This document shows positions 35,891 through 53,591 of a stretch of 64,000 bases of DNA, in pieces. The position numbers were made by a program, and so were the translations under genes. Position 1 is the first letter of the stretch. Each line of letters begins with the position of its first letter. Source of the DNA: Pantoea trifolii (GTDB taxonomy: Bacteria > Pseudomonadota > Gammaproteobacteria > Enterobacterales > Enterobacteriaceae). The notes beneath the pieces were generated by a model, which had not been told where the DNA came from, ran no database searches, and saw only the letters and a program-made list of their open reading frames with translations. The DNA is taken from positions 62,001 to 126,000 of the forward strand of contig NZ_JANIET010000002.1 of NCBI RefSeq assembly GCF_024506435.1, in the 5' to 3' direction.

Positions 35891-35893
35891 AAT

Positions 35894-36841: not shown

Positions 36842-37677
36842 CCTTTACTCCCGCCACTGGCAAGGCCGCTGACCAGCGTCTTTTGCAGCCAGATGGCAAT
36901 AAACAGCGGTGGCACCGACGCCAGAATGCCGACGGCAGCGATCAAGCCATCATCGGTGGCGCGCCCGGCGGTGAATCCGGCAATGGTGACCGGCAAGGTT
37001 TGTGCGGCGATGTTGCTGGTAAACAGCAGCGCATAGAAAAACTCGTCCCACGCCAGCAGCCAGCCAAACAGCGCGGCGGCCCCCAACACCGGCTTCGCCA
37101 GCGGCAGCGTAATGCGCAGCAGCACTTGCCAGACACGCAGCCCATCAAGGCGCGCCGCCTGTTCAATATCCTGCGGCAGCGTATCGAACTGGTTTTTCAG
37201 CATCCAGGTGAGGAATGGGAGAATCAGCGAGCAATACACGATAATCAATCCGGGCCGCGTGTTGAGCAGATCGAACTGCTGCAACAGGAAGTAGAGCGGC
37301 AGCACGAACGCCACCGGCGGCACCATATAGATAGCGAGTGAGGCGAATAGCCAGCCGTCGCGACCGCGATAGCGCGAGAAGCTGAACGCCGCCGGAATCG
37401 CCAGCAGCAAGCAGATGATTGTCGCGCCTGTGGCGACTAACAAACTGTTGCCGAGCGCATGCAGGAACAGCACGCCCGGCTGGCCTGGCTCCAGCGACAA
37501 CAGCTTGCCGTAGCGGGTGAAATCCCACTGGCGCGGCAGCCACTCGAGCGGCACGCGGGTGAGATCGCTGGCGGCGCTGACGCTCATCAAAAACAGCCAG
37601 CCCATCGGCGCTAGCACCGAGAACGCCACCAGCAGCGCGGCGGCGTATTTGCCAACATGGCGCATTTTAACCTTCAT
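36838..37677 (-). CDS. Carbohydrate ABC transporter permease (MalG-like)
   Basis: A 279-residue inner-membrane protein with six predicted segments. The EAA coupling loop is at QAARLDGLRVWQVLLRITLPLAKP in the C-terminal half. It overlaps the next permease by 11 bases and the kinase by 4, indicating one operon. Confidence 0.92.
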   Translation of the reverse strand: MKVKMRHVGKYAAALLVAFSVLAPMGWLFLMSVSAASDLTRVPLEWLPRQWDFTRYGKLLSLEPGQPGVLFLHALGNSLLVATGATIICLLLAIPAAFSFSRYRGRDGWLFASLAIYMVPPVAFVLPLYFLLQQFDLLNTRPGLIIVYCSLILPFLTWMLKNQFDTLPQDIEQAARLDGLRVWQVLLRITLPLAKPVLGAAALFGWLLAWDEFFYALLFTSNIAAQTLPVTIAGFTAGRATDDGLIAAVGILASVPPLFIAIWLQKTLVSGLASGGSKG

Positions 37678-38575
37678 GAGCGCTTCCTTTGCGGCGCTGC
37701 CGCCACAGTAACAACATGTATAGCGTGATCAGCACCGCGCACAGCAAGGTCATCAACATGGCGTAAGCCGCGCCGCTGCCGGCCCGCAAGTAGCTAAACG
37801 ACTCCTGATAAACGTAGAAACTCAGGGTTTTGGTGCTATCGACCGGCCCGCCGCGTGTCATCACGTAGATGATGTCGAAGATTTTGAAGGCGTCGATGGT
37901 GCGCAGAACCAGCGCCACGCTGAGTGGGCCAACAATCGCCGGGAAAGTGATGGCACGAAAACGCCGCCACGCCGACGCGCCATCCAGCCGTGCGGCTTCA
38001 AACAGATCGTCGGGAATCGATTGCAGTGCCGCCAGCACCAGCAAGGTCACCAGCGGATAGTTTTTCCAGATATCGGCAAACATCACCGCGTTGAGCGCCG
38101 AATCCGGCGAACCCAGCCAGCTGCGATAGCCATCAATGATGCCTAACTGCGTGAGCAGGGCGTTGATGCTGCCGTAATCCGGGTTGAAATTGAGACGCCA
38201 CATCATGGCGTTAACGATGGTTGGCAGCGCCCATGGCAGAATCACCAGCACGCGCAGCAGGTTGCGACCGGCGAATTTCTGGTTTAGCAACAGCGCTATC
38301 AGCACGCCGATCACGCCTTCAATTGCCACCGACACCACGGTGAAATAGAGCGTGCGCCACAGCGAACTGCGGAAATCCGCATCGGTGATGGCGAACAGAT
38401 AATTTTCAAAGCCAATCCAGCCCGGCGCTTCACCGCTGCCGATCAGGGCGGCATCGGTGAAACTCAGCCAGATGGTGCGTAACAGCGGCCATGCGGTGAG
38501 CAATAGCATCACCAACAACATGGGTGCCAGCAGCACCCATGCCTGCCGTTGTTCGCGTTGACGCAAACTCAGCAT
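37667..38575 (-). CDS. Carbohydrate ABC transporter permease (MalF-like)
   Basis: A 302-residue six-segment permease with EAA loop FEAARLDGASAWRRFRAITFPAI. It begins with the charged stretch LRQREQRQAWVLLAPMLLVMLLL. Forms the membrane channel with the MalG-like partner. Confidence 0.92.
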   Translation of the reverse strand: MLSLRQREQRQAWVLLAPMLLVMLLLTAWPLLRTIWLSFTDAALIGSGEAPGWIGFENYLFAITDADFRSSLWRTLYFTVVSVAIEGVIGVLIALLLNQKFAGRNLLRVLVILPWALPTIVNAMMWRLNFNPDYGSINALLTQLGIIDGYRSWLGSPDSALNAVMFADIWKNYPLVTLLVLAALQSIPDDLFEAARLDGASAWRRFRAITFPAIVGPLSVALVLRTIDAFKIFDIIYVMTRGGPVDSTKTLSFYVYQESFSYLRAGSGAAYAMLMTLLCAVLITLYMLLLWRQRRKGSAHEG

Positions 38576-38584
38576 TGTTGCCCC

Positions 38585-39832
38585 TTAGCGCAGACGCGCC
38601 GCACTCTTATCTACCGCTTGCAGCGCGGCATCTGGCGTTGCGCTGCCCACCAGCACCTGCTGCAACTGCTGCTGCAGCGTGTTGGAGAGACGCGAATAGT
38701 CGGCGGTTTCCGGACGCGACAGCATCACGTTAAGCGACTTATCCGCCGCCGCGATCAGGCTTTCCTGGTTTTTCAGCACCGCCGGATCCTGATACGAGCT
38801 TTTCCAGATCGGCAGACTCAGCGTGGCGTATTGGTTCTGTACCGGCTGTGAAGTCATGTAGCGAATGTATTGCCATGCCTGATCCGCGTGCGTGCTGCCT
38901 TTGGTGATGCCAAGGCCCATTGAACCATTTACCGCACCGAATTTACCCGGCGCATCGCCTGGCGCAGGAACAATGCCCACCTGACCGGCGACCTTACTTT
39001 GCTTCGGATCGTTGGCCATGTTGTACATATAGGTCCAGTTGAGCGCGAATGCCGCATCGCCGTTGGAGAAGGCTTTACGCACATCTTCTTCCAGATATTC
39101 GCGGGAAGCCGGATTGCTCAAGCCTTCATCCAATGAGCTTTTCATCAGCTTCACCGCTTGCAGCGAGGCCGGTGAGGAGAAATCGAGTTTGTCATTGTTA
39201 TAGAATTTGCCGCCAAAACCCGACACCAGCGTGGTGTAATCGCACACCAGCGCTTCGGCCTGCGACCAGCTCCATACCAGCGGATATTTCACGATGTTCT
39301 TCTGCTTGATGATGCGCGCGTCATCCATCACCTGCTGCCAGGTTTGCGGCGGGGTGGTGATACCGGCTTTCTCCAGCATCGCTTTGTTGTAATAGAGATA
39401 TTTGGTGTCGAGGATCCACGGCATGCCGAGGGTTTTGCCTTTGAACTCAACGGTGTTCATTGCGCCCGGGAAAATCTGCCCCTTTTCGTCGGCGCTGATG
39501 CGGCTGCTGACGTCCTGCAACAGATCGAACTTGGTGAATTCTGCCGGCCAGATGGCATCGAACAGCACCACATCGTAGCCGTTGCCGCCCGCGCCACGCG
39601 CCGCAACAATTTTGTCGTGCAGCGCTTCGTACGGTACAAACTCAAGATTAACCTGCACGTCCGGGTGCGCTTTCTGAAACTCCTGCGTCATGGCGCGGAT
39701 ATCATTTTCGCTATACGCCGCCTGCGTCATAAACAGCGCATTCAACGTGGTTGCTGCCGCTGCGTTGCCCACGCTGGCTAACAGAACCGCTGCAAAACAT
39801 CCTTTTATGACTGGGTTGAATCGGATTTTCAT
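38585..39832 (-). CDS. Carbohydrate ABC transporter solute-binding protein
   Basis: A 415-residue periplasmic protein (family 1 extracellular solute-binding). Signal peptide at residues 1-26 (KGCFAAVLLASVGNAAAA). The family's N-terminal TLNALFMTQAAYSENDIRAMTQEFQKAHPDVQVNLEF and Trp-rich sugar-contact regions (MPWILDTKYLYYN) are present. First gene of the operon, 9 bases before the permease. Confidence 0.92.
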   Translation of the reverse strand: MKIRFNPVIKGCFAAVLLASVGNAAAATTLNALFMTQAAYSENDIRAMTQEFQKAHPDVQVNLEFVPYEALHDKIVAARGAGGNGYDVVLFDAIWPAEFTKFDLLQDVSSRISADEKGQIFPGAMNTVEFKGKTLGMPWILDTKYLYYNKAMLEKAGITTPPQTWQQVMDDARIIKQKNIVKYPLVWSWSQAEALVCDYTTLVSGFGGKFYNNDKLDFSSPASLQAVKLMKSSLDEGLSNPASREYLEEDVRKAFSNGDAAFALNWTYMYNMANDPKQSKVAGQVGIVPAPGDAPGKFGAVNGSMGLGITKGSTHADQAWQYIRYMTSQPVQNQYATLSLPIWKSSYQDPAVLKNQESLIAAADKSLNVMLSRPETADYSRLSNTLQQQLQQVLVGSATPDAALQAVDKSAARLR

Positions 39833-39866
39833 GGTGTTTTCCGCCTTGATGCAAAAAGAGGGTGTT

Positions 39867-39895
39867 TTATTAAATCAATTTGATGGATTTAATAA
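39867..39895. promoter_or_regulatory. AT-rich palindrome upstream of the ABC operon
   Basis: TTATTAAATC (39867-39876) and GATTTAATAA (39886-39895) form perfect 10-bp arms around 9 bases, 35 bases before the binding-protein start. AT-rich symmetrical sites of this size suit ROK-family repressors, so it is a candidate site for the ROK protein at 48808-49977. Confidence 0.5.
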
Positions 39896-40020
39896 CGCGC
39901 ACAAGTTGTCAGATTGCTGCGGCTGACATCGGTTTGCTTATGCAATTGATGTGCCAGGGCATAAATCTCATTTGCCACTGAACACTACTTTGCACGGATT
40001 TTTACCGCTGTCATGTAAAC

Positions 40021-40049
40021 AGGTTGTAAATTGTGTGGCTGATCATAGA
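40021..40049 (+). repeat. Left direct repeat of the indigoidine/minimycin-type element
   Basis: Shares 27 of 29 bases with 48730-48758, same orientation: AGGTTGTAAA, one variable base, TGTGTGGC, one variable base, GATCATAGA. It sits between the ABC operon and the island's leftward operon terminator. The right copy contains a plausible promoter for the ROK gene, so the left copy may be a duplicate made on insertion. Confidence 0.7.
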
Positions 40050-40126
40050 AGTTGCTGTGACGTCGAATTTGCATAGCAGCCAGAGATTGGGGGGCCATTT
40101 CTTTTTTAGTTGCATTATTCTGGTGC

Positions 40127-40166
40127 AAAACAGCGCAGCACTGCGACTTTAGCGTGCACTGCGCTG
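40127..40166 (-). terminator. Intrinsic terminator of the island's leftward operon
   Basis: On the minus strand, CAGCGCAGTGC and GTGCTGCGCTG form a near-perfect stem followed by TTTT. It lies 43 bases after the small membrane protein gene. Confidence 0.65.
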
Positions 40167-40208
40167 GGATTCGGTCTCTTATGGTGGCCTGCGCGGCCAT
40201 CATCTTTG

Positions 40209-40469
40209 CTATTTGCTGAGACTGTGAGATCGATCAGAAAGTGATTTGCGATGCAGCATGCCAATTTCTCGTAACAGGAAGAGATAGAGGGCAGGCATGA
40301 TTAATATCATCGCTATCACATAGCCAAATTTATATTTCGCGGAAAGGCGTCCTTTTACACCATAAAAAATATGTTTCCCAGTAATAAAAAAAAGGATAAC
40401 CACATAGGCCGTGACGATATATCCCACCAGAAAATAGGCTGAAAGAAAATTTGAGATCAATGTCTGCAT
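40209..40469 (-). CDS. Small membrane protein of unknown function
   Basis: An 86-residue protein with two hydrophobic segments (about residues 8-32, SAYFLVGYIVTAYVVILFFI, and 48-66, YVIAMILIMPALYLFLL) and a charged C-terminus. I do not recognise a family. It is the last gene of the leftward operon with upp-like, pecM-like and HAD genes, 27 bases after the HAD gene, so it may be part of export or resistance. Confidence 0.65.
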   Translation of the reverse strand: MQTLISNFLSAYFLVGYIVTAYVVILFFITGKHIFYGVKGRLSAKYKFGYVIAMILIMPALYLFLLREIGMLHRKSLSDRSHSLSK

Positions 40470-40496
40470 AATAACCTCGGTGTTGTCTATTGGTAG

Positions 40497-41198
40497 TCAC
40501 ACAAGACTGACGAGAGCATTTTGCTGTTGATGGTATTGTTGGCAAAGTTGCACCACTTGAGTAAAGTCATGTGCTAATGAATTTGGCGAAGCAGTAAGCA
40601 AGGTTTTTTCATCGTGAATACCATAGGTCACTGCAATTGATTTACATCCCAAATGGTTCGCCATGAGAATGTCATGTGTGGTATCACCCACCATAATGGC
40701 TTGTGCATTGCTGGCGTTGAAAAAATCGAGGATTTTTTCCCCGGATTCTGGATGCGGTTTTTTTTGCTGCACTTCATCCGCACAGACAACAATATTAAAC
40801 AGTGAGGCGATGTGCGCCGCAGATAGTAAGGTATTGGCACTGTGAGAAAATTTATTGGTTGTCACCGATAAGCGCATTCCCAGGCGCTTAAGTGTCTCCA
40901 GTCCGTTAATCACACCGGGGAAGAGTAAAGATTGGGCAGCGGGAATAATGATGAGTTTAAATTGACGCTGATACTCTTCAACAGCTAATTCAACCAGATA
41001 ATTGTTCACGGGCAGTTGCATTAGTTGGGCAAAGGCTTGTTCCAATGGTAAGCCTATCGTCTGTCTGATTAACGCTTGCGGTAATTCTTTTAAATCCAAT
41101 GCGCGAAAAGCTGCATTAAATGTTAAAGGGATGGCCTGAGCGGTATCAAAAAGTGTTCCGTCGAGGTCAAACATAATAATAGTTTGAGGCGTATTCAT
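40497..41198 (-). CDS. HAD-family phosphatase (IndB-like)
   Basis: About 233 residues from ATG at 41198; the frame runs upstream but loses the family start. HAD motifs are complete: I DLDGTLFD (residues 11-18), II TTNK, III KPHPE with KKPHPESG, IV GDTTHD. The sequence resembles phosphoglycolate phosphatase-type HAD enzymes with a C1 cap. Indigoidine clusters carry a HAD phosphatase (IndB), and the minimycin cluster of Streptomyces a phosphatase domain reported as self-protective. A nucleotide 5'-phosphate substrate is inferred. Confidence 0.8.
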   Translation of the reverse strand: MNTPQTIIMFDLDGTLFDTAQAIPLTFNAAFRALDLKELPQALIRQTIGLPLEQAFAQLMQLPVNNYLVELAVEEYQRQFKLIIIPAAQSLLFPGVINGLETLKRLGMRLSVTTNKFSHSANTLLSAAHIASLFNIVVCADEVQQKKPHPESGEKILDFFNASNAQAIMVGDTTHDILMANHLGCKSIAVTYGIHDEKTLLTASPNSLAHDFTQVVQLCQQYHQQQNALVSLV

Positions 41199-41232
41199 TG
41201 ATTGTCTCTCAATACAAAAAGCTAACTGAAAA

Positions 41233-42138
41233 TTAATGGCCCAGCTTTCTTTGTGGTAAAGCGACAGGTGATTGGGATTTATCATGACGCGGACGAGCCA
41301 GATAAATAGCCGTAACAATCGCTACACATCCCACCAGCTGTAAATGGGTGAATGTTTGGCCGAGGATTAAATAGCCCAGCACACAAGCCGACAAAGAGCT
41401 CATAAAACCCAGGAAAGAAGTGGTAACCGGCGGTAGTTTTTCAATGCCACGGAACCAGACAAAGTAGCCAAACACGCCGCCCGCCAGACTTAACCAGCCG
41501 TAGCCAATAATATTGGTTAGCGTAAGTTGAGAAGGGAACGTTTCCAGCCAAAGCGCTGCAGGCAATAACATTAAACCGCCTAGCGTCAATTGCCAGCCGG
41601 TAAATGCCAGTAAAGACATATTGGCTGGTCGTCCCCAATGCTTGGTGAGCAAAATGCCCATCGCCATGCTGGTGGTGCCAACTAATCCAACCATAATTCC
41701 CTGCGTATTAAGCTGAACGGCGCTGTTTAACACCAGTAGCCCAATGCCAGCCACACCAACCAGCGCGGAAAACACATGCATAATGCTGAGCTTATGCCGG
41801 AACACCAATGCGCCAATAACCATAACAATGATTGGCTGGCAGGACATCACCAGTGATGCCAGACCACCAGGCAAAAAATAAGCGGCGGCAAACAGGCAGT
41901 AAAAAAACAGGCCAATATTAAGAAATCCTAACGCCGCCATTTTTAGCCACCAAACGCCGTAAGGTCGCACGCGGCAAAACAGCAATAAAATAATGCCGGC
42001 TAATAACGCCCTGATAACCGAGGCCAGTAAGGGCATATTGGCCGGTAAGGTCTGCGTCGTCACAATATAGGTACTGCCCCAAATGATCGGCGCCAGCGCA
42101 GTGATCATAATGTTTATTAGCGTGGCAAACTTATTCAT
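41233..42138 (-). CDS. PecM-like EamA/DMT exporter
   Basis: About 301 residues from ATG at 42138, ten membrane segments in two EamA repeats. LAPIIWGSTYIVTTQTLPAN and MPLLASVIRALLAGIILL at the N-terminus are characteristic of PecM, the exporter linked to PecS and indigoidine efflux in Dickeya. It overlaps the upp-like gene by 8 bases. Likely exports indigoidine or a related nucleoside. Confidence 0.85.
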   Translation of the reverse strand: MNKFATLINIMITALAPIIWGSTYIVTTQTLPANMPLLASVIRALLAGIILLLFCRVRPYGVWWLKMAALGFLNIGLFFYCLFAAAYFLPGGLASLVMSCQPIIVMVIGALVFRHKLSIMHVFSALVGVAGIGLLVLNSAVQLNTQGIMVGLVGTTSMAMGILLTKHWGRPANMSLLAFTGWQLTLGGLMLLPAALWLETFPSQLTLTNIIGYGWLSLAGGVFGYFVWFRGIEKLPPVTTSFLGFMSSLSACVLGYLILGQTFTHLQLVGCVAIVTAIYLARPRHDKSQSPVALPQRKLGH

Positions 42139-42796
42139 GATGCACGCCCGGATAAGTGCCAAAGTAGCGATCGCCAAAATCACCAATACCAGGCCGCATA
42201 AAGGCAGAATCCGTCATCCCTTTTTCAATCGATGATGTGATGATGGTCAAATCGGGCCAGGTTTCGACCAGGCGCTGAATACCCGCAGGGGAAGCAAGCA
42301 CGTTGACTACGATCATATTCTCAATGGCAACGCCACTCTCTTTGAGAATATCAATCGCTTTCAGGAGCGAACCGCCGGTAGCCAGCATCGGCTCGAAAAG
42401 CATGACGCTCATGCCAGCAATACCTGCAGGTAAATGTGAATAAAGATAGTGCGGAAGTTTCGACTCTTTATCGCGCTGAATAAGGATCTTACCGATAGGT
42501 TGATGCGGAAACATGGCGCGGAACTCACTCTCCATGCTTTCACCCGCTCTAATCACGGATACCCCACAGACATCACGGACAAGTGCCTTACCCGTAAAAG
42601 GATCACCTATTGGCGTGGTCACTGTCTCATCAGAGTAGGGCAAGTGCTGTGCGGCGCTTTGCAGCAGCAAACGTATCACCTGATTTGCATGGTGTGTGAA
42701 GGTGTTCAGGTTGGCCGAACGATTACGCATACTGAGATGTAAATGGGATAGCCAGGCAGAATCGGGTAACACGTGAACGTTGGGCAGTGTTGACAT
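42131..42796 (-). CDS. Uracil phosphoribosyltransferase-like protein
   Basis: A 221-residue type-I phosphoribosyltransferase. PRPP loop FEPMLATGGSLLKAIDIL near residue 133 (usual UPRT reads DPMLATGGS), RAGESMESEFRAMFPHQPIG near 83 and uracil-site GIGDFGDRYFGT at the C-terminus. First gene of the leftward operon, divergent from the MarR gene. It is presumably a second copy, as the housekeeping upp normally sits with uraA or purM. In the minimycin cluster a UPRT (MinD) is reported as part of self-resistance. Confidence 0.85.
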   Translation of the reverse strand: MSTLPNVHVLPDSAWLSHLHLSMRNRSANLNTFTHHANQVIRLLLQSAAQHLPYSDETVTTPIGDPFTGKALVRDVCGVSVIRAGESMESEFRAMFPHQPIGKILIQRDKESKLPHYLYSHLPAGIAGMSVMLFEPMLATGGSLLKAIDILKESGVAIENMIVVNVLASPAGIQRLVETWPDLTIITSSIEKGMTDSAFMRPGIGDFGDRYFGTYPGVHHE

Positions 42797-42861
42797 AGGT
42801 CAGTCCTATTGATCCTTGAGAAACAGTAATAGAGTGATAAGATGAATATATCTTTCACGAT

Positions 42862-42883
42862 AGTATCTTTTTAAAAAGATACT
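42862..42883. promoter_or_regulatory. Perfect palindromic MarR/PecS-type operator
   Basis: AGTATCTTTTT followed directly by its reverse complement AAAAAGATACT, 22 bp in all, lies between the divergent upp-like and MarR-like genes. The same TATCTTT/AAAGATA arms recur at 43510-43527 before the NRPS gene. Confidence 0.75.
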
Positions 42884-42947
42884 CATTAAAAAGATAAACA
42901 CAACTATAATTCATTTTCAAGTCTCTTTTTCTTTTATGAGGAACACC

Positions 42948-43433
42948 ATGCAGTATGACCATGTAGACAGATTACTCGTCCAGTGGCTGCAACAACGCCC
43001 CGATTTGGATTGTTCACCCATGGGCGTGCTTGGCCGCATCAGCCGCATGAGCAGAATTGTTGATAAAAAGCTCGATAAAACATTTAAAAACAACGATCTG
43101 AGCGCTATCGAGTTTGATATTCTGGCGGCGCTCAGGCGGTTCAATTCGCTGACGACACCTACAGAACTCTACCAAACATTGATGTTGTCCTCTGGGGCGA
43201 TGAGTACAAGGGTTGAGCAGTTGGTTCAGCGTGATTTAATTGAAAGGATTTACAGCGAAGAAGATCGTCGGAGCTGTAACTTGAGCCTGACAAAAAAAGG
43301 GAAGTCATTGATAGATAAAGCTATATCAGAACATGTCGCCAATGAAGATGAGATTCTGAATCCGTTAAGTCAAGAGCAGCGAGAACAATTGGCATCGCTG
43401 TTACGTAGCTGGTTATTAGCTAACGAAAAGTAG
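42948..43433 (+). CDS. PecS-like MarR-family regulator
   Basis: About 161 residues from ATG at 42948 (GAGG upstream). MarR winged helix at about residues 50-110 (SAIEFDILAALRRFNSLTTPTELYQTLMLSSGAMSTRVEQL, EEDRRSCNLSLTKKGKSLID). The N-terminus VQWLQQRPDLDCSPMGVLGRI and C-terminal AISEHVANEDEILNPLSQEQRE closely resemble Dickeya PecS, which represses indigoidine genes. It lies between both island operons with palindromic sites at each promoter. Confidence 0.85.
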   Translation: MQYDHVDRLLVQWLQQRPDLDCSPMGVLGRISRMSRIVDKKLDKTFKNNDLSAIEFDILAALRRFNSLTTPTELYQTLMLSSGAMSTRVEQLVQRDLIERIYSEEDRRSCNLSLTKKGKSLIDKAISEHVANEDEILNPLSQEQREQLASLLRSWLLANEK

Positions 43434-43509
43434 TTCCGATACCGGCCTGACTCCAGGCCGGTTAATCCCTTCATTGACCTTTTTCCCGGCATAATTCCTC
43501 TTTAAGAAA

Positions 43510-43527
43510 TATCTTTCCAAAAAGATA
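43510..43527. promoter_or_regulatory. MarR/PecS-type operator over the NRPS promoter
   Basis: TATCTTT-CCAA-AAAGATA, followed by a half site AAAAGTATCTTTT at 43547-43559. The first abuts the -35 box and the second covers the -10 box of the promoter below. Confidence 0.7.
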
Positions 43528-43528
43528 C

Positions 43529-43556
43529 TTGACTTTGCTAACTGCAAAAGTATCTT
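43529..43556 (+). promoter_or_regulatory. Probable promoter of the NRPS operon
   Basis: TTGACT (43529-43534), 16-base spacer, TATCTT (43551-43556). Transcription would start near 43563, which argues for the ATG at 43594 as the NRPS start and against the in-frame GTG at 43561. Confidence 0.6.
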
Positions 43557-43593
43557 TTGTGTGAACTATAACTGCTGGGAATATTACATTATC

Positions 43594-46500
43594 ATGACGG
43601 TCAAAGCCCCAATATCGCCTGCTGTTTCAGAATCCTTTTTAGAACGTAGTCATAGCAGTCACTCAGTAAGTTTATTCGCCATGCTTGAAACCCATGCGCG
43701 CCATTTCCCTGAGCAAATTGCGGTCAAAGATGCGCAAAACTCATTGAGTTATCGTCATTTTTTTCAGCAGATTTGGAGCAATGGAAAGAAACTCAACGCG
43801 TTGATTGATACCGAATTGCAGTACATCGGACTTTATTGTGAACCTTCGGTTGAGATGATTTGCGGCGCATGGAGCATTCTCGCGGCTGAGCGCGCCTACC
43901 TGCCGCTGGCACCGGATTATCCTGCCGATCGTCTGCGCTATATGATCGAGGATTCGGGCATCAAGATGGTACTTACCCAGCCGCATCTTAAGGCGCAACT
44001 CGCTACGATGGTGACAGAAGAGATTACTATCATCACGCTGGATGACCTTCAGGCCAGTGCCGCAGCCACTGTTCCTCGCCACCCGTGCCACCACCGGGAG
44101 CGGCTAGCCTATATGATCTATACATCGGGTAGCACCGGTAAACCAAAAGGCGTGATGGTGAGCTATGCGAATATTTCTCACCAGATGGCCTGGCTAAAAA
44201 GTCAGTTTGGTTTTGACCACAATGACCGCATTTTGCAGAAAACCCCGGCCAGTTTTGATGCCGCACAGTGGGAAATTCTGGCACCGGCCTTTGGTAGCCA
44301 GGTGATTATGGGTCCAAAGGATTGCTATCGGGATCCGGATGCATTGATCAACACCCTCATTAGCGAGCAGGTGACAGTGTTGCAATCTGTACCCACGTTG
44401 TTGCAGGCACTGGTCGAACACCCCCTTTTCCAGGACTGCTGTGCGTTAAAGCACGTATTTAGTGGCGGTGAGATTCTGACTCGCAATCTGGCGCAGGCGT
44501 TTTTCCAGCGTTTACCGCACGCTGCATTGACCAATTTGTATGGTCCAACCGAATGCACCATCAACGCGTCGAGTTTTACGCTGGATCCTGAGTTGATCGC
44601 TGCTTATCCCGATGCCATCGCCATTGGTAAACCTGCGGCCAATACGCTTTATCATGTGCTTAATCCCGCGGGTGAACCTGTCGTGCCGGGTGAAACGGGT
44701 GAACTCTATATTTCTGGTTTGCAGGTCGCTAAAGGCTACTATCAGCGACCTGAACTCACCGATGAAAAATTCCTGCCGAATCCCAGAAAAATAATGGCAG
44801 GTCACGATCGCTTATACAAAACTGGCGATTTAGTTCGTCAGGATCCGAATGGTAATACCCACTTTGTGGCGCGCGTGGATAATCAGATCAAGCTACGCGG
44901 TTATCGGGTAGAACTGGATGAGATTCGCCTGGCAATTGAAAATCATCACTGGGTAAAAACAGCGGCGGTTGTGGTTCAACAAGATCCGCGCTCGGGTTAT
45001 CAGACGTTGGTCGCCTGTGTTGAGCTGGACAAACGCCAGGCGGCGCTGATGGATCAAGGCAATCACGATCGTCACCATCTCTCTAAATCGAGTAAGTTGC
45101 AGGTGAAAGCGCAGTTGTCCAATGCGGGTTGCCGAATGTTATCAACGGCCCAATTATCCAGTAGCATCACGCTGCCTTATATCGCTTCAGACCATCAACA
45201 GCGCACGACGGCGTTTGGTCGTAAAACCTATCGTTTTTTTGACGGCGAACCGTCGCTGACGCGCCAGGATTTAATCGATCTTTTACAACGTCAGCCCATA
45301 GAGAGCTGCACAGATGAAAATCTCGCGACGCTCACGCTGGATAAACTGGGCAAGCTGTTACGCAATTTTGGGCAATTTGTTAGTGATGAGCGGTTATTAC
45401 CCAAATACGCCTATGCATCGCCGGGCGCACTCTACGCCACACAACTTTACCTGGAATTAAAGGGTTGTGCCGGATTACCCCCCGCGATCTATTACTACCA
45501 TCCTGTTCATCACTGCTTGCTGCCTATTGCCTCATTGCAACCGACAAAGGATCCCGTTTTCCGGCTGCATTTTGTCGGTAATCGACAGGCGATTGAGCCG
45601 GTTTATAAAAATAATCTGCGTGAAGTACTGGAGATGGAAACTGGTCACATGCTCGGTCTTTTTGACGAGTTGCTGCCCGAATTGGGGCTTCATGTACATC
45701 AGGCCGCACTGTTACGCGGCGCATTACCTGAGTGGTATCAAGGCAGCCACGATGACGATTATCTGGGTTGCTACGTCGTTGATCATCAACCGGTTGCAGC
45801 GAGCCGCGTGCAACCTGAACTCTATTTACAAATGCAGCAGCCGCTCCCGGACTTAGATGCCGGACTTTATCAGTACCAGGCAGGTGAATTGCATTTCCTT
45901 TCGACCAGCATGTTGCAGAAAAGGGATGTCATCGCGATTAATCAAAGGGTGTTTGACCGTGCGCAGTTCGGAATTAGTGTGGTGTGTAATGGCGGCGATC
46001 GTGAAGAACATTACATCCTTGCGGGTCGTGAAATGCATCGTTTACAAGCGAATAAACAACGGTTGGGCCTGATGTCATCCGGCTACAGCTCGAAAAGTAA
46101 TAACGACTTGCCTGCCGCGATAAGCATGCGTGCAATTTTGGCGGAACAGCAACTGCCTATGGAAAGCCTCTATTTTTGCGTGGGAGGGCCAATCAGCCAG
46201 GCGCAGTTTCTGCATCAGGGAATGAATGAGGATCGCATTCATATGCAGGGTCCAGTTGAATTACTCAAGGAAGACCTGGCGGCACAGCTGCCAAAATATA
46301 TGATCCCGAATAAAGTGATCATCCTGGATAATCTCCCGCAGACGGCCAGTGGCAAAGTTGACCATCAGGCACTGAAAGCGCTTCCAGAATTAACGCATAC
46401 AGACGATGGGCAAGAGAGGGTGCCGCTTAAATCCGCGACCGAAAAGAAAATTGCCGAAATTTGGTGCGCGGTAATGAAATGGGAAGCGGTATTTGCCACG

Positions 46501-47487
46501 GACGATTTCTTTACCGGTGGCGGCAACTCGTTAACTGCGGTTGCGCTGGTTAATCGCATCAATAAAACCTTTAATATTAAACTTCCGCTGCAGGTGATAT
46601 TTCATACGCCTCATATCGCAGGTTTAGCGACTGCGGTAGAAAATTGTATTCAATCCGACGTTGAATATTCCCGTCTGATCAAACTGAATGATTTTGCGGA
46701 AAAACCGATTTTCTGCTGGCCAGGTTTGGGAGGATATCCGTTAAATCTCAAATTACTGGCGCAGCATATTCCTGATCAGCGTGCATTTTATGGCATTCAG
46801 GCGAGAGGTATAAATGAAGGTGAAATACCACTTCCAACCATTCAGCAAATGGCACTGGAAGATATTTGCCAGATAAAAGCGATACAGCCAACCGGTCCTT
46901 ACACACTTTGGGGATACTCTTTTGGCGCGCGCGTGGCTTTTGAAACCGCAGCGCAACTCGAAGCGCAAGGTGATGTTGTTGAGTCACTGTCTCTATTAGC
47001 GCCGGGCGCGCCCATCACGCAAATGGAGCGAGAACAACGATACGAGCATAAAGCCGCTTTTGATAATCCGGTATTTCTGGCCATTCTGTTCTCGGTATTT
47101 GCCCATCAGGTTGAGGGGCCGTTACTGGATCGCTGCCTGAGTAGTTGCAAAACTAAAGCAGAGTTTATTGGCTTTATTTGCCAGCGGTTTCCGTTGTTAC
47201 AACGTGAAATGGTTGAGCGCATTATTCACATCGTCGAAACCACTTATGCGTTTAGTTATCAATTCACGGAGTTGCAAAATCGCCAACTCAACGCGTCTGT
47301 TACCATTGTAAAAGCGCAAGGCGACCATTACTCATTTTTAGAGCATGCGCCAGCTTTTAGTCGACAACCGCCAACCATTATTGAGTTATCAGTCGATCAC
47401 TATGCGGTGCTTAAACAGCACGGCATCCATGAACTGGTTCACACCTTATTTACTACTCAACCGTGTAAGGAACAGGCGCATGCGTAA
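43594..47487 (+). CDS. Indigoidine synthetase-type NRPS (A-Ox-T-TE)
   Basis: About 1297 residues, close to BpsA/IndC (about 1282). Adenylation motifs: A3 YTSGSTGKPKGV (near 174), A5 NLYGPTE (314), A7 YKTGDL (408), A8 NQIKLRGYRVELDEI (430), A10 GKV with Lys921. Between A8 and A10, at about residues 495-860, is an FMN-type SagB-like oxidase insertion (YASPGALYATQLYLEL, GLMSSGYSSKSNNDLP near 830), the hallmark of indigoidine synthetases. A carrier domain follows (GGGNSL, Ser979) and a thioesterase (GYSFG, Ser1109). It should activate, oxidise and cyclise L-glutamine. First gene of the rightward operon; its stop overlaps the indA-like start by 8 bases. Confidence 0.92.
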   Translation: MTVKAPISPAVSESFLERSHSSHSVSLFAMLETHARHFPEQIAVKDAQNSLSYRHFFQQIWSNGKKLNALIDTELQYIGLYCEPSVEMICGAWSILAAERAYLPLAPDYPADRLRYMIEDSGIKMVLTQPHLKAQLATMVTEEITIITLDDLQASAAATVPRHPCHHRERLAYMIYTSGSTGKPKGVMVSYANISHQMAWLKSQFGFDHNDRILQKTPASFDAAQWEILAPAFGSQVIMGPKDCYRDPDALINTLISEQVTVLQSVPTLLQALVEHPLFQDCCALKHVFSGGEILTRNLAQAFFQRLPHAALTNLYGPTECTINASSFTLDPELIAAYPDAIAIGKPAANTLYHVLNPAGEPVVPGETGELYISGLQVAKGYYQRPELTDEKFLPNPRKIMAGHDRLYKTGDLVRQDPNGNTHFVARVDNQIKLRGYRVELDEIRLAIENHHWVKTAAVVVQQDPRSGYQTLVACVELDKRQAALMDQGNHDRHHLSKSSKLQVKAQLSNAGCRMLSTAQLSSSITLPYIASDHQQRTTAFGRKTYRFFDGEPSLTRQDLIDLLQRQPIESCTDENLATLTLDKLGKLLRNFGQFVSDERLLPKYAYASPGALYATQLYLELKGCAGLPPAIYYYHPVHHCLLPIASLQPTKDPVFRLHFVGNRQAIEPVYKNNLREVLEMETGHMLGLFDELLPELGLHVHQAALLRGALPEWYQGSHDDDYLGCYVVDHQPVAASRVQPELYLQMQQPLPDLDAGLYQYQAGELHFLSTSMLQKRDVIAINQRVFDRAQFGISVVCNGGDREEHYILAGREMHRLQANKQRLGLMSSGYSSKSNNDLPAAISMRAILAEQQLPMESLYFCVGGPISQAQFLHQGMNEDRIHMQGPVELLKEDLAAQLPKYMIPNKVIILDNLPQTASGKVDHQALKALPELTHTDDGQERVPLKSATEKKIAEIWCAVMKWEAVFATDDFFTGGGNSLTAVALVNRINKTFNIKLPLQVIFHTPHIAGLATAVENCIQSDVEYSRLIKLNDFAEKPIFCWPGLGGYPLNLKLLAQHIPDQRAFYGIQARGINEGEIPLPTIQQMALEDICQIKAIQPTGPYTLWGYSFGARVAFETAAQLEAQGDVVESLSLLAPGAPITQMEREQRYEHKAAFDNPVFLAILFSVFAHQVEGPLLDRCLSSCKTKAEFIGFICQRFPLLQREMVERIIHIVETTYAFSYQFTELQNRQLNASVTIVKAQGDHYSFLEHAPAFSRQPPTIIELSVDHYAVLKQHGIHELVHTLFTTQPCKEQAHA

Positions 47488-48412
47488 CAGCGAATTTAAA
47501 CTCGAATTTCAACCCGAAGTGAAGCAAGCACTTGAATCAGGACATCCCGTTGTTGCGCTGGAATCCAATGTGATTACCCACGGGCTTAATTATCCCGATA
47601 ATATTGAAACGGCATTAAAGGTCGAGGCGGCTGTGCGGATAAGCGGCGCGATTCCTGCCACTATTGGTATCGATAACGGTAAAATTTTGGTGGGTATGGA
47701 TTACCAACAAATAGAACGTTTCGCCACTCAAAAAAATATAGCCAAAGTCTCCAGTCGCGAGTTGCCGTTTATTCTGGCGACCGGTGCGATGGGAGCCACC
47801 AGCGTAGCGTCGTCGTTGGTGATTGCTGAATTAGCGGGCATTCCTTTCTTCTCCTCTGCCGGATTGGGCGGTGTTCATCGTGGTGCGGAAACATCAATGG
47901 ATATTTCCGCCGATCTCATCCAGTTAACGCGTTCAAAAGTGACGGTAATCTGTGCCGGCGTTAAAAACATCCTTGATGTGGGTCTCACGTTGGAGTATCT
48001 CGAAACCCATTGTGTACCGCTTGTCAGCTGGCAAACCGATGAGTTTCCGGCGTTCTATTGCCGTAACAGCGGCTTTAAAAGTCCAGTGCGCCTGGATTCA
48101 GCACCGCAACTTGCGCGTGCGATTGAAATCAACCGGGCGCTGCCAGGGGCCGCCGGAATGGTGATTGCTACCCCAACCCTTGAAGAGGATGCCATCAACA
48201 GCGAGGAGGTTCAGCAAGCCATTGACAACGCTATCTCCCAGGCGAAGCTGCAGGGTATTAACGGTAATGGTGTAACGAAATTCATTATGAAAGCCGTGGA
48301 AGAGATGACGGCGGGGCGTTCAGCAGAAGCCAACAAAGCGGTACTAATCAATACGGCACGCGTGGCTGGCGAGATTGCCATGGCGCATTACACCTATTGC
48401 CGTAATCACTGA
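47480..48412 (+). CDS. IndA/PsuG-family pseudouridine-5'-phosphate glycosidase-like protein
   Basis: About 310 residues from ATG at 47480 (PsuG of E. coli is about 312). Family residues are conserved: Glu in VALESNVITHGLNYP, Lys in AKVSSRELP, GGVHRGAETSMDISADL with the catalytic Asp, and the C-terminal Asn region AEANKAVLINTARVAGEIA. PsuG forms or breaks the C-glycosidic bond of pseudouridine 5'-phosphate. In indigoidine clusters the homologue is IndA; in the minimycin cluster it is thought to attach the oxazine to ribose 5-phosphate. Translationally coupled to the NRPS. Confidence 0.9.
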   Translation: MRNSEFKLEFQPEVKQALESGHPVVALESNVITHGLNYPDNIETALKVEAAVRISGAIPATIGIDNGKILVGMDYQQIERFATQKNIAKVSSRELPFILATGAMGATSVASSLVIAELAGIPFFSSAGLGGVHRGAETSMDISADLIQLTRSKVTVICAGVKNILDVGLTLEYLETHCVPLVSWQTDEFPAFYCRNSGFKSPVRLDSAPQLARAIEINRALPGAAGMVIATPTLEEDAINSEEVQQAIDNAISQAKLQGINGNGVTKFIMKAVEEMTAGRSAEANKAVLINTARVAGEIAMAHYTYCRNH

Positions 48413-48432
48413 CTATAAGGAGAACCCAAACG

Positions 48433-48657
48433 ATGCCGCATCTCAATGTGAGCTTTCATCAAGGTCCAGAAGAGAGTCTCGATCTCGACGCGCTATCTCA
48501 GGCGCTGACTGAAATTATCACCGAAAAATTGGGTGTGAAAAGTCAGTATGTTTCGATGACGATTCAACCAGTCGCCAAACAACATTGGTCAGAACAGGTG
48601 TTGGAAAAATATATTAACCAACCCGGCTATCAGGTGATTAAGCCGGTGAGCTATTAA
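48433..48657 (+). CDS. 4-Oxalocrotonate tautomerase-family protein
   Basis: A 74-residue protein with Pro directly after the initiator Met (MPHLNVSFHQGP), the catalytic amino-terminal proline of the tautomerase superfamily. Residues 18-45 form the expected amphipathic helix (LDALSQALTEIITEKLGV). It lies 20 bases after the indA-like gene with a good AAGGAG site and ends the rightward operon. A tautomerase is not part of the indigoidine clusters I know, so a role in processing the oxazine or pigment intermediate is a guess. Confidence 0.8.
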   Translation: MPHLNVSFHQGPEESLDLDALSQALTEIITEKLGVKSQYVSMTIQPVAKQHWSEQVLEKYINQPGYQVIKPVSY

Positions 48658-48678
48658 GCTGATTTAGCGCTCGCGCAA

Positions 48679-48706
48679 GCCTGGCGCAGTGATTCATGCG
48701 CCAGGC
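48679..48706 (+). terminator. Hairpin ending the NRPS operon
   Basis: GCCTGGCGCA (48679-48688) and TGCGCCAGGC (48697-48706), perfect 10-bp arms with an 8-base loop. No strong T-run follows. Confidence 0.65.
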
Positions 48707-48729
48707 CAATCCTCTTTCCCTTCCCGAAA

Positions 48730-48758
48730 AGGTTGTAAAATGTGTGGCCGATCATAGA
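48730..48758 (+). repeat. Right direct repeat of the island, overlapping the probable ROK promoter
   Basis: The second copy of the 29-base repeat at 40021-40049 (two mismatches inside the 29 bases, diverging afterwards). It contains a TTGTAA-like -35 and, just past its end, a TAGATA-like -10 upstream of the ROK gene. Confidence 0.7.
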
Positions 48759-48807
48759 TATTGATGCGGCTATCCGCAGCGTGTGGAATTAAAGGGAAGG
48801 GAGCAAG

Positions 48808-49977
48808 GTGAAAACGTCGGGAACCAATCTGGAACATGCACGGGCGCACAATCGCCGCGTGATCATTGAAGCCATTCGCCTGCATGGTGAACTGACCCGC
48901 GCCGAGCTGGCTCGTCTAACCGCGCTGACGCCGCAAACCGTGTCGAATATTGTGGCGGAGTTGGAGCAGGCCGAACTGCTCACCAGCCGTGCGCCGCGCA
49001 AGCAAGGACGCGGGCAACCGGCGATTCCGGTGACGCTTAATCCCGCCAGCGCCTTTTCGATCGGCATCCATCTTGATCACCAAACGCTGCTGATTGTGCT
49101 GGTGGATCTTACCGGTGAAATTCACTTCCGCCGCCTTATTCTGGTACAAAAGCCGCAACCGGATGCCACGTTAGCGCGCATCGCCGAGGTGCTCAGCGAG
49201 ATCAAAACGCAGCTGGGCGATCGCTGGCAGAAAGTGCTGGGCATTGGCGTGGTGATGCCCGGTCCGTTTGGCGTTGAGGGCATCTCCTCGATGGGGCCAA
49301 CCACGCTGCACGGCTGGGAACAGGTGAATATCGAAGCCAAACTTGCTGCGATGAGCGGCGTGCCAGTAACGCTGGAAAACGATGCCACGGTGGCGGCAAT
49401 TGGCGAACGTTTTCATGGCGTGGCGCGACAGCTCAACTCGTTTGTCTATCTCTACATCGGCACCGGTTTGGGCGCGGGCATTATCATGGATGGCCATGTG
49501 TATAGCGGGCATGCGCATAACGCCGGTGAAGTGGGTCATGTGGTGGTGGAGCCGGGCGGACGCGAATGTTATTGCGGTAATCAGGGTTGTTTAGAACGCT
49601 ATGTTTCATTGCAGGCGGCGTACGAGTTTTGCGGGCTCGATCCGATGACCGCTTTGCCGGAAGATTTGCTGGAAGTCGATCCGGCGCTGTTTGATAAATG
49701 GATCGATACCGTGTTAACGCCACTGCGTCAGGCGATTAACCTGCTGGAGTGCATCTTCGATGGTGAAAGCGTGATCATCGGCGGCATGATGCCGGCGGTG
49801 CTGCTGGATAAAATCATTCGTCGCCTGCCGCCGCTCTATCAATCGGTGCGCGGCCGCTACCTCACCGGAACACGCGTTAAAGTAGGTATGACCGGCAGCG
49901 ATACTGCCGCGTTAGGTGCCGCCGCGCTGCCGATTTTCGACGAGTTTAATCCGCAGTTTCAGGTGCTGATGAAGTAA
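48808..49977 (+). CDS. ROK-family transcriptional regulator (NagC/Mlc type)
   Basis: A 389-residue protein from GTG at 48808 (GGGAG site). N-terminal winged helix at about residues 10-65 (NRRVIIEAIRLHGELTRAELARLTALTPQTVSNIVAELEQ) followed by the ROK domain with the zinc motif CYCGNQGC near residue 258. It faces away from the island and towards nothing it would obviously regulate. Without the island it would be divergent from the ABC transporter/PfkB operon ending upstream at 39832, its probable target. Confidence 0.88.
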   Translation: MKTSGTNLEHARAHNRRVIIEAIRLHGELTRAELARLTALTPQTVSNIVAELEQAELLTSRAPRKQGRGQPAIPVTLNPASAFSIGIHLDHQTLLIVLVDLTGEIHFRRLILVQKPQPDATLARIAEVLSEIKTQLGDRWQKVLGIGVVMPGPFGVEGISSMGPTTLHGWEQVNIEAKLAAMSGVPVTLENDATVAAIGERFHGVARQLNSFVYLYIGTGLGAGIIMDGHVYSGHAHNAGEVGHVVVEPGGRECYCGNQGCLERYVSLQAAYEFCGLDPMTALPEDLLEVDPALFDKWIDTVLTPLRQAINLLECIFDGESVIIGGMMPAVLLDKIIRRLPPLYQSVRGRYLTGTRVKVGMTGSDTAALGAAALPIFDEFNPQFQVLMK

Positions 49978-49985
49978 CGGCCCGA

Positions 49986-51413
49986 TCAGGCCGCTACCTT
50001 CACTGCCGTTTTCCGCTTCTCCTTCATCTTCCAACACAGCCACAGCGCAATAAACCACGCCGGTGAAGCAGCTAATGCAGCGAGCGTGTCGGGATCAAAT
50101 ATCATGATCACCACCGAGAACAGGAAGAAAATCAGTGTTCCCCAGGCCGTCACTTTGCCGCCGGGCATCTTGAATTTGGATTTCTGATGCAGATCCGGAC
50201 GTTGTCTGCGGTATACAAGATATGAGACCAGAATCATGCCCCAACAATAGATCACCAGAATCGCGGCCAGCGTTGAAACGATGGTGAACAGCGTTGTCAC
50301 ATTCGGCACCAGGAACAGCAGCAAGGTGCCGCTTAGCATGCAGAAGCAGGAGAACAGCAGGCTGCGCAGCGGAATACGTGTGGTGCGCGACAAAATACGG
50401 AACTGCCAGTGCGCATGCTTCTCGACGGACAAGCCATATAACATGCGGGTGCTGGAGTAGACGCCGCTGTTGGCGGAAGACATTGCCGAGGTGAGCGCCA
50501 CGAAGTTGATGATCGCCGCCGCCGCGGGCAATCCGGCTTTGGCAAACAGCGTCACGAATGGGCTGGTATCCGGCGACACGCCTTGCCATGACGTCACCGC
50601 GATGATCACCATCATCGAGAGCATGTAGAAAATCACAATCCGCAGCGGCAGAGAGTTAATTGCACGCGGCAGAATTTTCTCGGGATCGCGGGTTTCTGCC
50701 GTCATGGTGCCGAGCAGCTCAATGCCGGTGTAAGAGAAAATCGCGATTTGGAAACCAGCAAGAAAACCGGTGATGCCATGCGGCATAAACACGGCGGGAT
50801 CGGTGAGGTTATGCACTGAAGCTTTAACGCCATCCGGCGAGGTCCAGCCGCTAAACACCATCCATCCGCCGGTGATAATCAGCGCGATGATGGTAATCAC
50901 TTTGATCAGCGCAAACCAGAATTCAGCTTCACCAAAAGCCTTCACCGACAACATGTTAAACAGACACAGAATGCCGAGGGTGAACAACGCGGGTATCCAC
51001 GCTGACATTTCCGGGAACCAATATTGCATATACGCGCCACACACCACCACATCCGCAATACAGGTCACCACCCAACTTAGCCAGTACGACCATCCCAGAA
51101 AGAAGCTGGCTTTCGGCCCAAGATAATCACCAACAAAATCGGCAAATGAGCGATAGTCGAGCCGGCTAAGCAGCACTTCGCCCATCGCCCGCATCACCAT
51201 ATAGCTGAAGAAGCCGACCAGAATATAGATGATTAATATCGAGGTTCCGGCCACCGCAATATTACGTCCCGCGCCCATAAACAGCCCGGTACCGATCGAT
51301 CCGCCCAGCGCGATCATCTGAATATGACGTTCGCTCAGTCCTCGCTGCAGTTTTTGCGAGGCGTCGTGAGTCCGAGCAGGCTGAATCTGCTCTTGTGTAG
51401 GTTTGTTAGACAC
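49986..51413 (-). CDS. APC-family amino acid permease, CycA-like
   Basis: About 475 residues with 12 membrane segments. GTG at 51413 is preferred (GAAGGAAT site upstream) over the longer frame to 51476. HIQMIALGGSIGTGLFMGAGR and SAMSSANSGVYSSTRMLYGLS match the D-Ser/D-Ala/Gly transporter CycA closely, as do SYLVYRRQRPDLHQKS and the surrounding loops. It probably imports a small neutral amino acid. Ends 9 bases from the ROK gene stop (convergent). Confidence 0.86.
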   Translation of the reverse strand: MSNKPTQEQIQPARTHDASQKLQRGLSERHIQMIALGGSIGTGLFMGAGRNIAVAGTSILIIYILVGFFSYMVMRAMGEVLLSRLDYRSFADFVGDYLGPKASFFLGWSYWLSWVVTCIADVVVCGAYMQYWFPEMSAWIPALFTLGILCLFNMLSVKAFGEAEFWFALIKVITIIALIITGGWMVFSGWTSPDGVKASVHNLTDPAVFMPHGITGFLAGFQIAIFSYTGIELLGTMTAETRDPEKILPRAINSLPLRIVIFYMLSMMVIIAVTSWQGVSPDTSPFVTLFAKAGLPAAAAIINFVALTSAMSSANSGVYSSTRMLYGLSVEKHAHWQFRILSRTTRIPLRSLLFSCFCMLSGTLLLFLVPNVTTLFTIVSTLAAILVIYCWGMILVSYLVYRRQRPDLHQKSKFKMPGGKVTAWGTLIFFLFSVVIMIFDPDTLAALAASPAWFIALWLCWKMKEKRKTAVKVAA

Positions 51414-51906
51414 ACTGATTCCTTCAGTCTGGCAAAAAGACACATGACGATGCCTGCCCGCAAGCATCAATGGCAAATAAGGAGTTGAACCTTAAAGAGA
51501 CACGCTTAAATAGATGAAAGAAAAACGAAATTAATGAAACGCTAATTCATGATGGAGGTTTCCGGCTAGGTTTTACTCATCGTGGTGGCGTGAGTTAACA
51601 AAGTCAATGCGGAAAAATAACAGTTTATTCACTTTTTGATAGCCATCAAAGAACTGAAAAATAGGAATAAAATCCAATTTTATGCAATTTAGTGAATAGT
51701 ATTCGCATAAATATGCGTCATATGAGGGGCTTTTTTAATGCTTAGTTATTCACTCTTTCACGAATTTTTGTATCTAAAAAGTTAAATCCTCCTTATTCAA
51801 CGCAACCCGCTTTTCTTAAAAGGTGTTAAATTACTTTCCGTCTAGTGCAATGCATCACCTTTCCACGTCTTTTCAATATAAATAACTCTGAACCTACAGG
51901 CTTCTC
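51414..51906. other. Intergenic region between the permease and glutamate dehydrogenase genes
   Basis: AT-rich, no gene recognised. It holds small symmetrical sites: GAATAGTATTC (51694-51704) and CGCATA-AA-TATGCG (51704-51717), adjoining and about 190 bases before the gdh start. They resemble, without the right spacing, an arginine-type box. They may serve the divergent promoters of the permease and dehydrogenase. Confidence 0.4.
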
Positions 51907-53181: not shown

Positions 53182-53213
53182 TTAATTAAATTTTAAGTTT
53201 GTTTAAATTGTTT

Positions 53214-53249
53214 GATAAACGCCGTCTTTGCCATGAGAGGGCGTTTATC
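53214..53249 (+). terminator. Terminator after glutamate dehydrogenase
   Basis: GATAAACGCC (53214-53223) pairs with GGCGTTTATC (53240-53249). A modest T-rich stretch follows. It lies 32 bases after the stop codon. Confidence 0.7.
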
Positions 53250-53256
53250 TTATCTT

Positions 53257-53547: not shown

Positions 53548-53563
53548 AGTATTATCTCCGGTG

Positions 53564-53591
53564 TTTAAATTTAAGTTTACTTAAGTTTAAA
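53564..53591. promoter_or_regulatory. 28-bp AT-rich palindrome upstream of the small hypothetical gene
   Basis: TTTAAATTTAAGT (53564-53576) and ACTTAAGTTTAAA (53579-53591) are near-perfect arms. Candidate autoregulatory operator. Confidence 0.45.

Follow-up and report, generated by a model that had tools for sequence, protein, structure and literature searches.

In many indigoidine-type gene clusters there are genes for a C-glycosidase and a phosphatase, neither of which the blue pigment requires. What these enzymes do there is the question raised by an eight-gene locus of Pantoea trifolii, at positions 40209 to 48657 of the window, by which we mean the whole 64,000-nucleotide stretch analyzed here (assembly GCF_024506435.1, contig NZ_JANIET010000002.1; C2:62001-126000). 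The genome comprises 5.06 Mb in 3 contigs, and C2 is a plasmid-like replicon of 776 kb. Our preferred reading, to which we give a probability of about 0.5, is that a likely acquired cluster of minimycin-type descent, predicted to form one regulon, has lost its DUF4243 gene and makes and exports a C-ribosyl aminopyridinedione nucleoside, not minimycin. On this reading, Gram-negative bacteria should yield a new uridine-like natural product, and the question above gains a testable answer. If it is true, indigoidine would often be a by-product of a nucleoside pathway, and a uracil phosphoribosyltransferase (UPRT) gene would mark clusters worth mining.

The eight genes and their ancestry

The earlier note, made from the letters of the window, described eight genes in a divergent arrangement around a PecS-like MarR regulator, headed by a nonribosomal peptide synthetase (NRPS). 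All eight open reading frames lie where it placed them and in the orientation described, with small start-codon corrections to the NRPS, HAD, and EamA genes, and Pfam matches bear out the families named; the small protein belongs to none. The features are as follows.

40209..40469, minus strand: small putative membrane protein, 86 amino acids, no known family (membrane nature judged from hydrophobic stretches)
40497..41198, minus strand: HAD phosphatase, IndB / MinC N-domain type (Pfam HAD_2, 5.3e-40; start corrected to 41198 from translations)
41233..42138, minus strand: EamA/DMT exporter, PecM-like (Pfam EamA, 7.3e-32; start corrected to 42138 from translations)
42131..42796, minus strand: uracil phosphoribosyltransferase, GDFGD type (Pfam UPRTase, 5.6e-63; putative MinD-like role)
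42862..42883, no strand: perfect 22-bp palindrome AGTATCTTTTTAAAAAGATACT, predicted operator between the UPRT and pecS-like genes
42936..43433, plus strand: PecS/MarR-family regulator (Pfam MarR_2, 5.1e-11)
43510..43527, no strand: second predicted operator TATCTTTCCAAAAAGATA, upstream of the NRPS gene, with TTGAC within 4 bases after it
43594..47487, plus strand: A-Ox-T-TE NRPS, IndC/MinA type (Pfam AMP-binding, PP-binding, Thioesterase; ATG start corrected to 43594)
47480..48412, plus strand: predicted IndA/MinB-type C-ribosylase, PsuG family (Pfam Indigoidine_A, 2.3e-111)
48433..48657, plus strand: 4-OT-type tautomerase with Pro after the start Met, MPHLNV (Pfam Tautomerase, 9.4e-05)

The genes run from UPRT through EamA and HAD to the small protein on the minus strand and from pecS through NRPS and PsuG to the tautomerase on the plus strand. 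The EamA and UPRT genes overlap by 8 bp, as do the NRPS and PsuG genes, which is usual for coupled genes.

By its sequence, the NRPS is of the indigoidine type (IndC/MinA), as the note had supposed, which sets it apart from unrelated A-Ox proteins. In the T domain the serine, and in the TE domain the serine and histidine, are invariant in all 81 aligned IndC-type NRPSs, and the A-domain code DAWQFGLINK, which we take to specify glutamine, is common to 69 of them, including those of Dickeya L070 and Streptomyces turgidiscabies L085. No Pfam row covers the Ox domain as such, which lies as an insert from about residue 490 to 890 between AMP-binding and AMP-binding_C and has many residues invariant across the 81 relatives. 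Three genes of the phosphopantetheinyl transferase (PPTase) family pass the cut-off in the genome, so the NRPS could be activated. Its nearest relatives are in Erwinia (69 to 71% identity) and in Vibrio and Marinomonas (60 to 61%); a protein search, taking the best 120 of 1103 matches, gave NRPSs 61 to 71% identical in Erwinia papayae, E. tracheiphila, Aeromonas sobria, and Vibrio nigripulchritudo. A careful tree was built from 31 of the 81 rows, chosen to cover the Gammaproteobacteria and the HAD-bearing actinobacteria with UPRT or DUF4243. It places the window with two Erwinia, two Vibrio, and the Marinomonas NRPSs in one clade (support 100/98), joined next by those of DUF4243-bearing Serratia (100/99), Photobacterium (100/99), and Photorhabdus (100/100), and a quick tree of all 81 rows gives the same nesting.

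Cluster architectures were compared among loci found by scanning a genome collection for the NRPS, of which the best 80 of 281 were kept. Together with 7 further loci and the window these made 88; 57 were kept for counting, and 31 were excluded that had no PsuG match of at least 120 bits in the interval reaching from 8.7 kb ahead of the NRPS to 7 kb beyond it. Genes were called with phmmer, using queries from the window or its relatives; some contigs end near the cluster, and absences at single loci are therefore soft.

A UPRT gene is present in 44 of the 57 clusters, and the linkage of PsuG-family and UPRT genes to IndC-type NRPSs recurs in two phyla. The cluster UPRTs split from housekeeping Upp at 100/100 in a tree of 71 rows (64 of them different, the duplicates being copies from whole genomes; L121, which has no match to the extraction pattern, was excluded), which rules out that the gene is the housekeeping one. 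They carry the motif GDFGD, versus GDAGD in Upp. A separate Upp gene lies on C1, so that the cluster enzyme is the second UPRT of the genome; the closest solved chains are 1upf and 1bd3, which we take to be Toxoplasma enzymes. The note had reasoned that UPRT, phosphatase, and exporter tie the locus to the minimycin type. The recurrent UPRT linkage, the split from Upp, and the nesting of the NRPS among DUF4243-bearing clusters all bear that link out, and a self-resistance role like that of MinD seems plausible for the UPRT.

The equivalents of E. coli PsuG residues Glu31, Asp149, and Lys166 are all conserved in the IndA-like enzyme; Lys166 and Glu31 serve as the iminium residues in C-C coupling (PMC7722734). 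The enzyme was aligned with other cluster enzymes scoring above 250 bits (54 rows with the window; Lonsdalea L080, with its PsuG in two pieces, was excluded here and counted in the 57-cluster survey) and with 10 other PsuGs from 119 genomes of the order. The motif SAG occurs in 53/54 cluster enzymes, that of the window included, and in 0/10 others, which all have TGG (10/10), as does E. coli PsuG (4gij). The two groups split at 100 (SH-aLRT). A PfkB-type kinase gene adjoins nine of the ten comparison PsuGs, which fits catabolic psuK-psuG, while the tenth has an aldehyde dehydrogenase gene on the side tested. None of the eight cluster proteins, to which the Pfam search for kinases was confined, matches a kinase family, and no second PsuG was found in the window's genome. 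Motif, tree split, and lack of a kinase among the eight genes rule out a catabolic PsuG, and by the first and last of these the locus also differs from psuGK pseudouridine catabolism. We predict instead a biosynthetic C-ribosylase, which belongs to a clade apart from kinase-linked catabolic PsuG. In Lonsdalea, the PsuG-family gene lies in two overlapping frames (L080:6917-7857) and looks broken or mis-sequenced.

A cluster without DUF4243

Fifteen whole genomes were searched for PF14027, which we take to be DUF4243 and which now bears the name questin oxidase-like. The family was not found in those of the window, two Erwinia, two Vibrio, Marinomonas, Dickeya, and two Lentzea; it passes the cut-off in five control genomes (Serratia, Photobacterium, Zooshikella, Photorhabdus, and Lonsdalea) and gives a weak match below it in Sphaerisporangium. 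The note's observation that no DUF4243-type gene was seen thus holds genome-wide. A HAD-PF14027 fusion in L085 supports the equation of the two families. Apart from the NRPS Ox domain, Pfam finds no oxygenase family among the eight genes.

The roles of MinA to MinD in the min cluster of Streptomyces hygroscopicus are taken from excerpts of a review, which assign the C-terminal DUF4243 of MinC to the ring-forming step of minimycin. The reviewed gene list, with L085 as a stand-in for the min cluster sequence itself, served for comparison. As far as the excerpts go, the locus has in common with min a glutamine A-Ox-T-TE NRPS, a tautomerase, a PsuG-family C-glycosynthase, a HAD phosphatase, and a UPRT. 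Each also has a transporter gene, an EamA exporter here and MinT in min, which may or may not be counterparts. The locus differs in the absence of DUF4243 from the genome, in its PecS-type regulator, in being gammaproteobacterial, and in a separate tautomerase gene, which in L085 is a C-terminal NRPS domain. At L085:2634-9836, fused NRPS-tautomerase and HAD-DUF4243 genes stand beside PsuG and UPRT genes in the reviewed minimycin layout.

In Serratia, Photobacterium, and Photorhabdus the DUF4243 proteins form a single clade (100/98), within which Photobacterium groups with Serratia (92/90), and their branching equals the NRPS order once DUF4243-free rows are removed. Most simply, then, DUF4243 traveled with the cluster and was lost once in the six-member clade; one loss is simpler than three gains, which points to loss and not primitive absence. 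The indC-type clusters of Photorhabdus, Serratia, and Photobacterium, the nearest DUF4243-bearing relatives, have UPRT, C-glycosynthase, and HAD in common with the locus but retain DUF4243 and, in place of EamA, a YdcZ exporter pair; a P. khanii region is tabulated in one study as most similar to minimycin/indigoidine (PMC12542766).

Within the clade, Erwinia psidii L006 has all eight genes and E. mallotivora L013 seven, the small protein not being found, and both keep the gene order of the window. The core also recurs in Vibrio L007 and L008 and Marinomonas L009, where an NADPH-dependent FMN-reductase-like gene is added to it. UPRT, PsuG, HAD, and EamA are retained in 6/6 members. The dN/dS values (NG86, finite dS) are 0.04 to 0.11 for PsuG; 0.06, 0.16, and 0.30 for UPRT; 0.09 to 0.12 for HAD; 0.10 to 0.14 for EamA; 0.08 and 0.35 for the tautomerase; 0.08 and 0.13 for the NRPS; and 0.03 and 0.04 for PecS, signs that the remaining genes have been under purifying selection since the loss. 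The FMN-reductase-like gene, which lies between HAD and EamA (L007:6975-7571, L008:2246-2842, and near 7340 in L009), was considered as a redox replacement for DUF4243 and rejected, being absent from the window and both Erwinia loci.

The absence of DUF4243 coincides with a different exporter. Among the 57 clusters, the 17 with DUF4243 have the YdcZ pair in 16 cases, EamA in none, and UPRT in 12, the exception, L085, having neither exporter; the 40 without it have YdcZ in none and EamA in 27. These 40 divide into 23 with a PRA-isomerase-like (PRAI) gene (UPRT in 23, HAD and DUF4243 in none, EamA in 14) and 17 without (EamA in 13). The window's type, with HAD, UPRT, and EamA and with neither DUF4243 nor PRAI, numbers nine: the six gammaproteobacteria and the actinobacterial loci L033, L038, and L074. 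This coincidence suggests that the DUF4243-free clusters export a different molecule. By sequence comparison the locus is of a known kind (IndC/MinA-type clusters), with the retained UPRT, the lost DUF4243, and EamA in place of YdcZ as its apparent novelties. No published description of a DUF4243-free, UPRT-bearing indC cluster was found in the literature searched, which covered few subscription papers.

Predicted product and competing explanations

The scheme that we infer, in all its chemical and regulatory steps, would run as follows. The NRPS would load, cyclize, and oxidize L-glutamine to 5-amino-3H-pyridine-2,6-dione; in the excerpt consulted, this compound arises from glutamine and dimerizes to indigoidine, the order of cyclization and oxidation being debated (PMC10989907). 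The tautomerase would present a reactive tautomer, and the IndA/MinB-type enzyme would couple ribose 5-phosphate to a ring carbon through a lysine Schiff base. The ring carbon derived from glutamate C-4 is presumably the one used for indigoidine dimerization. In minimycin, labeling reported in the review excerpts traces the C-ribosylated carbon to glutamate C-4. C-ribosylation would then take the carbon needed for the dimer, so that glycosylation and pigment formation would compete and exclude each other, and indigoidine is best read as a competing product of the nucleoside pathway. Without DUF4243 the ring would stay a pyridinedione; dephosphorylation, assigned here to the HAD enzyme, would give a nucleoside of C10H14N2O6 (258.085 Da), which would leave the cell by way of the EamA carrier. 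Because the predicted base presents the same imide face as uridine, it would likely be toxic once rephosphorylated. Protection would come from the second UPRT through a larger UMP pool, the mechanism described for MinD, and the uridine-like imide face fits the retained UPRT. The nucleoside might be made, as the note proposed for a C-nucleoside antibiotic, either together with the pigment or in its place. It is mainly this retention, an indirect argument, that makes us prefer the nucleoside over the pigment only.

We extend the proposal only tentatively to other species. Clusters of this type might represent an undescribed class of C-nucleoside antibiotics, pseudouridine analogues in which N1 is replaced by a C-NH2 carbon, and IndA and IndB in indigoidine clusters generally might make, finish, and export a nucleoside, the blue pigment being overflow of the unglycosylated base. 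This wider claim is possible rather than probable.

Several points weigh against a nucleoside product. Dickeya L070 and Dickeya-like L101, L102, and L106 have PsuG, HAD, and EamA without DUF4243, and Dickeya PecM is described as the indigoidine exporter (PMC6391409); genes of this combination may therefore work for the pigment. A related V. nigripulchritudo protein is named indigoidine synthetase in a database listing. The UPRT, found also in all 23 PRAI-type clusters, might be kept for another reason, and a separate tautomerase was not found in the Vibrio and Marinomonas members. As for the exporters, 13 of the 40 DUF4243-free clusters have neither, and correction for ancestry leaves at most 5:0 informative pairs (median p = 0.0625), so that an ancestry-corrected proof of the swap was not reached. 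Many of the dS pairs are saturated and several are high (some above 2, up to 4.3), and in L006, L013, L007, and L009 the UPRT frame opens ahead of the probable start codon, distorting the dN/dS values there.

The alternative that survives best is a plain indigoidine cluster like the indABC-pecSM one of Dickeya, with pigment as the sole end product, IndA and IndB helping it somehow, and the UPRT and tautomerase carried along; we regard this as a serious rival, though less likely than the nucleoside. All the Dickeya parts are present (PecS-, PecM-, IndA-, IndB-, and IndC-like), L070 likewise lacks DUF4243, and in both the PecS-like gene, on the plus strand here, lies opposite the exporter-bearing transcript, here UPRT-EamA on the minus strand. 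In the excerpts consulted, Dickeya makes indigoidine, with PecM named as its exporter (PMC6391409), and expressing an IndC-type NRPS alone in E. coli, together with a PPTase, is enough for indigoidine (PMC12766979). The locus nevertheless differs from the Dickeya one in its additional UPRT, tautomerase, and small membrane protein, in the position of the UPRT gene between the pecS-like and exporter genes, and in its NRPS, which falls in another clade, inside UPRT- and DUF4243-bearing clusters. The EamA protein is 76 to 78% identical to those of the Erwinia loci and 45% to that of L070; for the PecS-like protein the figures are 83 to 84% and 39%. The UPRT is absent from L070, L101, L102, and L106, yet the whole six-member clade keeps it with low dN/dS, and a C-ribosylase-clade enzyme with intact catalytic residues is needless for indigoidine.

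That minimycin (oxazinomycin) is made after all, its ring rearranged by an unlinked or nonhomologous enzyme, is improbable. The note had likened the locus to the minimycin cluster and suggested a C-nucleoside antibiotic, and genes of MinA, MinB, MinC N-domain, and MinD type are indeed common with the min cluster as excerpted, each cluster having a transporter as well. Against this stand the genome-wide absence of PF14027, on which we dropped minimycin as the best reading, the lack of a further oxygenase family in the locus, and the coincidence of DUF4243 absence, a loss in this lineage, with absence of the YdcZ pair. Although PsuG and UPRT are in general families of salvage enzymes, it is very unlikely that the IndA-like enzyme and the UPRT serve pseudouridine and uracil salvage as mere neighbors of a pigment NRPS, given the motif and tree that set the former apart from catabolic PsuG, the missing kinase, the Upp on C1, and the linkage recurring in two phyla.

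Regulator, probable insertion site, and related clusters

The palindrome AGTATCTTTTTAAAAAGATACT in the UPRT-pecS interval is perfect, and a near copy lies ahead of the NRPS gene. Two exact matches to their core, TATCTTTNNNNAAAGATA, lie in the window and a third match, elsewhere in it, has 2 mismatches, compared with an average of 0.14 at up to 2 mismatches in shuffles. Across the 5.06-Mb genome, allowing up to 1 mismatch, it occurs in only two places, on either side of the pecS-like gene (reversed control, 0). Similar half-sites are found in the same interval of the Erwinia, Vibrio, Marinomonas, and Photobacterium loci. In other bacteria, PecS proteins act as repressors of the divergently oriented pecM gene, with urate or xanthine as ligands (PMC6391409). 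By analogy, we predict that the cluster is one regulon, its two transcripts both repressed by the PecS-like protein acting at the two palindromes. Just downstream of the second predicted operator, at 43549-43558, there is one more half-site, AGTATCTTTT.

The GC content of the cluster is 47.5%, versus 55% in the rest of the window, where the lowest 8.4-kb stretch is not below 52%. The flanking solute-binding-protein and ROK genes are 8,975 bp apart in the window versus 264 bp in P. dispersa, in which the site is cluster free, and Pantoea sp. SOD02 (94.9% identity over the matched 56%) has four small unrelated genes there. Among 60 genomes (its own, 35 of the genus, and 24 of the order), the NRPS was found at E of at most 1e-100 in its own only; among 246 of the family, it was found at E of at most 1e-150 in 8 including its own, the other 7 having different gene sets. 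The empty or variable site in relatives, the low GC content, and the patchy occurrence of the NRPS indicate an insert in a variable spot, likely acquired horizontally. Close copies of the NRPS exist elsewhere, since 28 database sequences share its 90% cluster. Plasmid records matching window positions 34000-54000 number 111, of which 67 are from Pantoea. A repeat search over 39700-49000 listed no repeats of at least 16 bases linking both ends of the insert; mobile-element genes were looked for in the window's list of open reading frames only.

Among the lesser cluster proteins, the HAD phosphatase is 42 to 67% identical to those of the related clusters compared and, among the 25 of 41 NCBIfam rows listed, has only two generic HAD subfamilies over the cut-off. 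The tautomerase is 73 to 76% identical to those of the Erwinia loci. The small protein has no Pfam or NCBIfam match; homologs adjoin the HAD gene in L006, L007, and L009 (31 to 40% identity) and were not found in L013 or the truncated L008.

The PRAI gene (PF00697, Pfam-checked in L016) accompanies UPRT and C-ribosylase genes, and never HAD or DUF4243, at L015-L017, L018, L020, L021, L023, L024, L026-L028, L031, L032, L037, L045, L047, L049, L052, L059, L061-L063, and L082. These clusters perhaps encode a further C-nucleoside pathway. An Old-Yellow-Enzyme gene is present in 10 of the 23.

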